Shown here piece by piece: positions 5,782-49,087 of a DNA stretch of 55,311 nt. The stretch lies in contig JAFUMP010000035.1 in NCBI GenBank assembly GCA_017482685.1, positions 1-55,311 of the forward strand, written 5' to 3'. How positions within the stretch are numbered: position 1 is the stretch's first letter; the number at the start of each line of letters is the position of its first letter. This DNA comes from a bacterium (lineage in GTDB: Bacteria > Cyanobacteriota > Vampirovibrionia > Gastranaerophilales > Gastranaerophilaceae). The notes under the pieces were generated by a model. That model was given only the letters and a program-made list of their open reading frames with translations, was not told the DNA's origin and did no database searches. The position numbers and the translations under genes are program-made.

Positions 5782-5839
<58 letters not shown>

Positions 5840-5855
<16 letters not shown>

Positions 5856-6042
5856 GATAAAAGAGACGATGACATTTGTTATCGTCTCTTTTATTTAGCA
5901 GTAGGACGAGAACCCCCTTTTTGTGGTTCGAGCGCGAGTGAGCTGAGGCTGGAGTGCTTTTGCCGAAGATTGAAAATCTATAGGCAAAACACGGAATTGC
6001 CGTTAAACGCGAACGAGCAAGACAGTCCACTGCGGCCCAGAT
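5840..6042 (+). repeat. tRNA-linked element A, bounded by 19-bp direct repeats of the tRNA-Ile 3' end
   Basis: The T-arm/acceptor end of tRNA-Ile (AGTCCACTGCGGCCCAGAT) is present at 5840-5858 and again at 6024-6042, 184 bp apart. A copy of the T-arm 5' strand (GTGGTTCGAG) sits at 5923. Between it and the second copy lies a foldable segment: GTG-C-TTTTGCC pairs with GGCAAAA-CAC, enclosing AGATT-GAA-AATCT. A CGG-AATTG-CCG hairpin follows, and TTCGAGCGCG can pair with CGCGAACGA at the base. Element B behind tRNA-His has the same architecture. No convincing gene lies inside. Read as an integrated or duplicated non-coding unit; the mechanism is inferred. Confidence 0.7.
5860..5897 (+). terminator. 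Terminator behind tRNA-Ile
   Basis: AAAGAGACGAT pairs with ATCGTCTCTTT over a short loop, followed by TATTT. It begins a few bases after the tRNA, inside the unit bounded by the repeated tRNA 3' end. Confidence 0.8.
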
Positions 6043-6186
6043 TAATAGAAGGATAAGTAGTAATCCTTCTTGATGCTATATTGTGCTATAATCACAATAT
6101 ATTTCAAAACCTTTATAGAGAATCTGCATTTTACTTAAAAGATTATGGAAAAGCTCTAGAAAAACAGAAAGCGCAGGTATAGATTT

Positions 6187-18522: not shown

Positions 18523-18605
18523 GCGCTCGTAGCCCAGTTGGCCGTTCGAGATTTTACGAAGTAAAATTCGAACAAAAATAGAGAAAATAGAAACGCTCTA
18601 TCCAA
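18523..18605 (+). repeat. Partial tRNA-Arg 5' copy with hairpin (reduced tRNA-linked element)
   Basis: The first 19 bases of tRNA-Arg (GCGCTCGTAGCCCAGTTGG) occur here and again at 18634, 111 bp apart. Right after the copy, GTTCGA-g-ATTTTAC, GAA, GTAAAATTCGAAC makes a strong hairpin. Its TTTTAC/GTAAAA stem and leading TTCGAG match element B at tRNA-His. CGCTCTATCCAAC at 18593-18605 is the reverse complement of the intact tRNA's D-arm. GTTGG of the copy can pair with this CCAAC. Confidence 0.65.
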
Positions 18606-18633
18606 CGGGTGAAAGGCAAAAAGAATAAGATAC

Positions 18634-48784: not shown

Positions 48785-48861
48785 GGCGCCTGTCGTCAAG
48801 TGGTCAAGACCTCGGATTGTGGTTCCGATATGCATGGGTTCGAATCCCATCAGGCGCCCCA
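48785..48861 (+). tRNA. tRNA-His (GTG)
   Basis: Cloverleaf with the extra G(-1) paired to C73, acceptor GCGCCTG/CAGGCGC, anticodon GTG in loop TTGTGGT, T-arm TGGG-TTCGAAT-CCCA, and CCA present in the DNA. Its last 20 bases plus T recur 188 bp downstream. Confidence 0.95.
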
Positions 48862-49050
48862 TAAAAAAGACTTTGGCTTTTGCCAAGGTCTTTTTTATTT
48901 GAGAGATGAGGGTGAGAAGCCATTTGAGGGTTCGAGCGAGGAGCGAGCAGAGTGCGAAGTGTTTTTACGAAAAGAATGAAATTCTTTGAAGTAAAACACG
49001 TAGACACGTTTAACGCGAGCGACTCAAGACAATCCCATCAGGCGCCCCAT
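48843..49050 (+). repeat. tRNA-linked element B, bounded by 20-bp direct repeats of the tRNA-His 3' end
   Basis: AATCCCATCAGGCGCCCCAT is at 48843-48862 and 49031-49050, 188 bp apart. A copy of the T-arm 5' strand (GGGTTCGA) is at 48928. Between it and the second repeat: GTG-T-TTTTAC (48959-48968) pairs with GTAAAACAC (48991-48999), enclosing AAAGAAT-GAA-ATTCTTT. CGT-AGAC-ACG follows; TTCGAGCG pairs with CGAGCGA at the base with two purine mismatches, as in element A. Sequence identity to element A is partial but the fold and the order of parts agree. Confidence 0.7.
48862..48900 (+). terminator. Terminator behind tRNA-His
   Basis: AAAAAAGACTTTGGC pairs with GCCAAGGTCTTTTTT over a very short loop. 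Same position relative to the tRNA as the hairpin behind tRNA-Ile, different sequence. Confidence 0.8.
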
Positions 49051-49051
49051 T

Positions 49052-49087
49052 TATAAAAATAGACCTCTTTAGAGGTCTATTTTATTT
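49052..49087. terminator. Bidirectional terminator
   Basis: AAAATAGACCTCT and AGAGGTCTATTTT face each other over TT, flanked by A and T runs; it follows element B and may also end the minus-strand gene to its right. Confidence 0.7.

Follow-up and report, generated by a model that had tools for sequence, protein, structure and literature searches.

Element B, a unit of about 190 bp behind the tRNA-His gene of a bacterium of the order Gastranaerophilales, belongs to a family of small units associated with the 3′ ends of tRNA genes. From sequence data alone, it can be established that the unit is mobile, that it has a strand-specific fold and junction strands specific to the neighbouring tRNA, and that it inserts exactly at tRNA 3′ ends. 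The explanation that we prefer, with a probability of roughly one half, is that these units are cassettes mobilised in trans, with tRNA genes as their anchors and a site of folded single-stranded DNA (ssDNA) that rebuilds the T-arm in the manner of an integron attC site; the recombination itself and the enzyme are inferred. The window, meaning the whole stretch of DNA analysed (55,311 nucleotides), also contains a second unit, element A, behind tRNA-Ile (Table 1).

Element B is composed of the tRNA end, a terminator, an inverted T-arm copy, a hairpin, the left half of the T-arm, a core of about 95 nt and an exact 20-nt repeat of the tRNA 3′ end. An earlier note on this DNA had placed such an element behind tRNA-His; its position and parts are reproduced by ARAGORN and by a repeat and hairpin search, including the stem formed by GTG-bulge-TTTTAC and GTAAAACAC and the GAA-capped hairpin. 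Element A has the same order of parts, as had been proposed, with two repeat copies around the core. The inverted T-arm copy upstream of the core had been overlooked (GGGTGAGAAGCC, 48910-48921, within site 2 of B; GGACGAGAACC in A). What had been described as a small CG-stem is better explained by a long-range triplet pair in the middle of the core, which occurs in five combinations and is complete in 71 of 76 copies, whereas the local stem is complete in 43 of 76; the combinations are GGC/GCC, GTG/CAC, GAG/CTC, GGG/CCC and GAA/TTC. The proposed closing strand is real, but it constitutes one side of a long basal helix with tandem G.A pairs. Elsewhere in the window, an inverted partial copy of tRNA-Arg (AAACGCTCTATCCAAC-GGG) is located at 18591-18609, just upstream of tRNA-Arg(ACG) at 18633.

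Table 1. Features of the tRNA-His locus (element B) and the tRNA-Ile locus (element A), in window coordinates.
Feature	Position	Strand	Basis or remark
tRNA-His(GTG)	48786-48861	+	ARAGORN
tRNA-His T-arm GGGTTCGAATCCC, presumed attachment site	48836-48848	+	Sequence read directly
tRNA-His 3′ end, copy 1 (T loop to CCA+T), direct repeat	48843-48862	+	Repeat search; empty and filled tRNA-His loci in relatives
Unit B's own terminator-like hairpin	48861-48898	+	17-nt arms, 94% complementary; unit terminator of relatives differs from native terminator
Site 2 of B, inverted T-arm copy GGGTGAGAAGCCAT	48910-48923	+	5′ strands of putative junction helices 1 and 2
Site 3 of B, left half, T-arm 5′ strand GGGTTCGA (8 nt)	48928-48935	+	Repeats 48836-48843
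Structured core of B (GCG...AAGAC)	48936-49030	+	Covariance model match, 96.6 bits
Core B, basal helix with tandem G.A pairs	48938-48948/49015-49025	+	
Core B, triplet pair GTG/CAC	48952-48954/49005-49007	+	
Core B, bulged stem	48959-48968/48991-48999	+	
Core B, hairpin with GAA loop	48971-48987	+	
tRNA-His 3′ end, copy 2, exact 20 nt	49031-49050	+	Its ATCCC is the right half of site 3
Second terminator at the tRNA-His locus	49056-49083	+	Native one, judged by comparison with relatives
tRNA-Ile(GAT), anchor of element A	5782-5855	+	ARAGORN
tRNA-Ile 3′ end, copy 1	5840-5861	+	Repeat search
Terminator-like hairpin of unit A	5857-5894	+	Repeat search
Site 2 of A, inverted T-arm copy GGACGAGAACC	5904-5914	+	
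Element A: T-arm left half GTGGTTCGA (5923-5931) and core (5932-6023)	5923-6023	+	Covariance model, 111.3 bits
Core A, triplet pair GGC/GCC	5947-5949/5999-6001	+	
tRNA-Ile 3′ end, copy 2	6024-6045	+	95% over 22 nt

A covariance model built from five copies was used for genome searches. Six strong copies were found in the window's own genome (1.5 Mb, 65 contigs, 74% complete), and within the genus 44 of 46 genomes carry copies, as do 15 of 22 genomes from other families of the order; in a wider draw, 24 of 28 genomes of the family carry them. The number per genome reaches about 32-34, five genomes having 19-34, and the genus as a whole contains hundreds. No copies were detected in 69 genomes from other families of the class in the wider draw, nor in nine in the first draw. 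A chance origin of the likeness between A and B is excluded because of the four additional strong copies in the same genome and the hundreds in the genus. A pattern scan of named genomes matched almost exclusively gut MAGs of Candidatus Gastranaerophilales / Melainabacteria; a match in a Rhizobacter MAG (L228) was rejected as a chance coding match without the core. The element has no match above the gathering score in Rfam 15.

The mobility of the unit can be seen at the tRNA-His locus of relatives, where an empty (G031) and a filled (G004) genome differ by exactly one 193-bp insertion, followed by 99% identity over 706 bp; G039 and G021 are likewise distinguished by 193 bp at this position. 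The insert is bounded by directly repeated copies of the tRNA 3′ end, relatives have the empty site, and comparison of these loci, at the level of sequence, shows that a unit of about 190 bp has been gained or lost with its borders precisely at the two tRNA-end copies. Units are found alone, in tandem, which is frequent (spacing 172-207 bp), or behind one or a few cargo genes; some units hold a single gene, but most are empty. Cargo found between sites includes Fic proteins (L051, L212), pairs of the ParDE (L211) and HigBA-like (L065) kinds, the latter in the window's own genome, a protein of the GIY-YIG type (L096) and ORFs of unknown function (L095). In the cargo examined, the next terminator and site are usually preceded by a decayed tRNA end. 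A pattern search for core-less units, considered as a sign of the core hopping alone, gave only background and a third core class, and this idea was dropped.

Among the 92 distinct copies with flanks, 60 have a tRNA gene no more than 260 bp upstream, mostly 55-87 bp away, representing 24 isoacceptors; the tRNA end is repeated in 53 of these 60. Such an arrangement might be no more than the remains of islands or prophages integrated into tRNA genes, with attL and attR left after deletion of the interior and no dedicated system involved. Island integration does leave repeats of tRNA 3′ ends (Islander, PMC4383910), and an IMG/VR prophage record (L317), in which the prophage lies between a tRNA-Val end and a copy, ends with a decayed tRNA-Val end, a terminator and a site. 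Independent deletions, however, would not yield the same 190-bp plan and a covarying core at 24 isoacceptors, and the exact 193-bp gain or loss is recent; we regard this origin as improbable. The same prophage record contains a phage-borne reverse transcriptase gene (phrog_1423; L317:6092-7252, minus strand).

The core is flanked by two halves of the T-arm of the neighbouring tRNA, as in the units at tRNA-His (GGGTTCGA-core-ATCCC), tRNA-Ile (GTGGTTCGA-core-GTCCAC), tRNA-Leu (GGGTTCA-core-AGTCCC) and tRNA-Gly (GCGAGTT-core-CGAGTCTCG). Taking the core out of site 3 gives an intact T-arm in the His, Leu and Gly examples, and the junction consensus in the listed units is AAGACA-ATCCC / AGTCC. The possibility that GGGTTCGAG serves only as one strand of a hairpin, without being a T-arm copy, was discarded, the split T-arm of the Leu, Gly and Asp units following their own tRNA. 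The upstream inverted T-arm copy has an altered loop (GGGAT-GAGA-ACCC, compared with the true reverse complement GGGATTCGAACCC). A three-way junction can form from the sense strand, with GGGAT/ATCCC as helix 1, AACCC/GGGTT as helix 2 and the conserved core hairpin as helix 3; free folding of a tRNA-Ala unit (L049), both as DNA and as RNA, yields this junction de novo. In 77 units, the mean pairing of helices 1 and 2 is 8.05 of 10, as against 7.26 (SD 0.10) with swapped partners and 6.69 (SD 0.08) in shuffled windows; judged by this pairing test, the junction helices covary with the target tRNA. In B itself the pairing of site 2 is weak (3 and 4 bp), helices 1 and 2 being partly mismatched. Some copies are located away from tRNA genes; these belong to a 90-nt subtype in G040 (L089-L094), where the dispersed cores lie inside long A/T-rich inverted repeats (e.g., CTTTTTCTTTGTTCTT...AAGAACAAAGAAAAAG). 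A peculiar copy is G005:C14:38857 (L052:3858-4065): the only close match to tRNA-Val(TAC) in that genome covers just positions 1-60, with the 3′ end about 140 bp further on, behind the core, which places the interruption of the gene in the T loop (by deletion, splicing or an assembly artefact).

The fold of the core was assessed in 98 distinct copies. Altogether, 84.2% of the cells are paired and two-sided changes occur at 23 of 26 pairs, with 437 two-sided cells compared with 112 (SD 10) for shuffled partners and 43-115 for slid registers. Along the basal helix, Watson–Crick pairs alternate with tandem G.A/A.G steps. Columns 16/17 contain tandem G.A/A.G in 58 copies and, as a block, two Watson–Crick pairs in 27, with few mixed states; elsewhere in the core, G.A mismatches outnumber T.C mismatches by 45 to 3. 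The tRNA-sense strand is the folded strand, because the G.A pairs would be T.C mismatches on the complementary strand. The earlier inference of selection on an RNA or ssDNA structure is supported by this covariation together with the strand-specific G.A pairs; a lack of homologues, or uncompensated changes at paired positions, would have refuted it, but homologues are many and the changes are compensated.

The covariation data do not decide whether the folded form is RNA or ssDNA, and a role as RNA is not excluded. The main rival to the cassette reading takes the core to be a structured non-coding RNA, either a small RNA gene or an RNA of a mobile element of the guide or bridge type, whose fold acts as RNA, the repeats only marking the place of insertion. 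Covariation and strand specificity would suit such an RNA equally, as would the tolerance of G.U over A.C (34 vs. 15), the tandem G.A pairs and CGAA/GUAGA internal loop, which are typical of RNA motifs, and the RNA folding of L049 (z -4.35). It is nevertheless unlikely in our estimation: a terminator stands between tRNA and core, neither A nor B shows a sense-strand promoter between its terminator and its site, no Rfam family is matched and the junction helices follow the DNA target. A guide RNA of TnpB or CAST, comprising the core and its 3′ flank, was ruled out, since TnpB/Cas12f-type nucleases (PF07282) are absent from all 12 genomes searched.

At least three classes of core have been seen. 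The second has the same ends (AGCGGATTTGCG...GAGCGTGGAGCAAATCCAAGACA) and another interior (L095:3732-3824 and L051:4000-4145, both minus strand; L119:1940-2060). The third (CTCCATTGGC...GCCAACGGAGTCC), found in L191 (G018:C90) and L183 (G021:C91) and standing in tandem in the latter, follows the same plan of tRNA, inverted T-arm and hairpin. Homologous exchange also occurs, because the same hairpin is found with different cores (L064/L068) and chimeric cores exist (L095). Two cores of one array, L095:5156-5262 and L095:2650-2756 (minus strand), look like reciprocal chimeras, the left half of each pairing with the right half of the other.

The enzyme has not been identified. No integrase gene was found inside the element in the copy neighbourhoods of the surveyed genomes. 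Among 49 tyrosine recombinase hits in eight genomes, just one (G009:C11) lies within 5 kb of a copy; it is upstream of tRNA-Lys, outside any unit, and was rejected as not linked. A second genome set gave no evident link between recombinases and copies either. A genome with 15 copies (G043) encodes no more than two Xer-like proteins and a single recombinase of 549 aa, and the universal tyrosine recombinases are XerC/XerD-like. Scoring against the integron integrase model TIGR02249 was limited to nine tyrosine recombinases of G000, G005, G033, G039 and G040, all of which fall below the cut-off (best 152.9 vs. 265).

Another candidate mover is a Y1 (HUH) transposase, such as RAYT, in which case the unit would be a non-autonomous ssDNA transposon or REP-like repeat inserting at T-arm hairpins. 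The hairpin with mismatches, the dispersed non-tRNA copies of G040, the RAYT genes of some genomes and the position of the core between T-arm halves without a target duplication of its own are compatible with this possibility, to which we nonetheless give only a small chance: no Y1 transposase match was obtained in G000, G005 (32 copies), G015, G026 or G039 (23 copies), and the 20-bp repeats flanking the mobile unit are unlike IS200/IS605 insertions. RAYT itself was rejected as the mover, being missing from many-copy genomes, and the RAYT genes here own a separate short repeat, GTAGGGTGCAATTTATTGCACC. One such gene, at L118:4560-5190, stands between its own REP-like repeats of this kind.

According to the preferred cassette reading, a small mobile unit aimed at tRNA 3′ ends in Gastranaerophilales would use element B, in folded form, as its recombination site. 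As ssDNA, helices 1 and 2 would rebuild a duplex resembling the tRNA T-arm, i.e., a symmetric site of the type used by T-loop-targeting tyrosine recombinases, and the core, as an extrahelical branch, would mark the strand and offer the recombinase a place to bind. An unidentified recombinase supplied in trans, possibly a housekeeping Xer protein or a phage integrase, would then join the folded site to the double-stranded T-arm, by which the unit, alone or together with a gene cassette, is inserted and the tRNA 3′ end restored; the T-arm would thus play the role of attI in an attC-like system. The ssDNA form, the mimicry of the attachment site by helices 1 and 2 and the recombinase in trans are all inferred. 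Each process has a precedent: a phage integrase that uses a T-loop attB is documented in mycobacteriophage Ms6 (PMC1762012), and folded-strand recombination in integrons (PMC3053210). The lack of a linked recombinase, the non-tRNA copies, the mostly empty units, the weak junction helices of B, the signs of homologous exchange among cores and the good RNA folding weigh against this explanation. A further and more tentative proposal, which we consider rather doubtful, is integron-independent cassette capture, where the site derives from the T-arm of the target tRNA and the cores are exchangeable, so that one machinery could serve any tRNA gene, the choice of tRNA being set by short pairing strands and not by the recombinase.

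If the cassette reading is true, an order of gut bacteria possesses a second lineage of cassette sites, centred on tRNA T-arms, the solution has evolved more than once, and hundreds of natural sites are at hand for finding the enzyme and testing target choice. Even under another mechanism, this is an undescribed, strongly covarying element with up to about 30 copies per genome in common gut bacteria, and it merits a name and an Rfam or mobile-element entry. Attachment at tRNA genes, folded sites and cassettes are each known singly; their combination and the family itself are undescribed as far as our literature searches show.

Elements of tyrosine integrases with a T-loop attB (Ms6, genomic islands) share with the units a repeat that starts in the T loop and ends with the tRNA 3′ end, as well as an insertion that restores the tRNA, but the units measure 190 bp, lack an integrase and contain an inverted T-arm copy besides a folded core that is conserved. 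REP/REPIN sequences with RAYT are likewise short structured repeats with many copies per genome; the units differ in having no GTAG foot or RAYT dependence and in possessing tRNA-end repeats and a 95-nt core with tandem G.A pairs. In CTX-phi, a folded single-stranded attP is recombined by the host XerCD. The underlying idea, a host recombinase acting on an attachment site formed by a folded single strand, is the same, whereas the units target the tRNA T-arm instead of dif and contain no phage genes. Integrons are the textbook example of recombination with a folded single strand. Their attC sites resemble those of the units in being folded and strand-specific, with a poorly conserved sequence, a conserved shape and boxes rebuilt by pairing; some of the units, like integron cassettes, carry one gene (toxin-antitoxin, Fic) or stand in tandem, although most are empty. 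The family is not an integron, because no integron integrase was found among the recombinases scored and the attC boxes (RYYYAAC/GTTRRRY) are absent from the junction in the listed units; unlike in integrons, the anchor is any of 24 tRNA genes rather than attI, and the site is a three-way junction with tRNA T-arm sequence.
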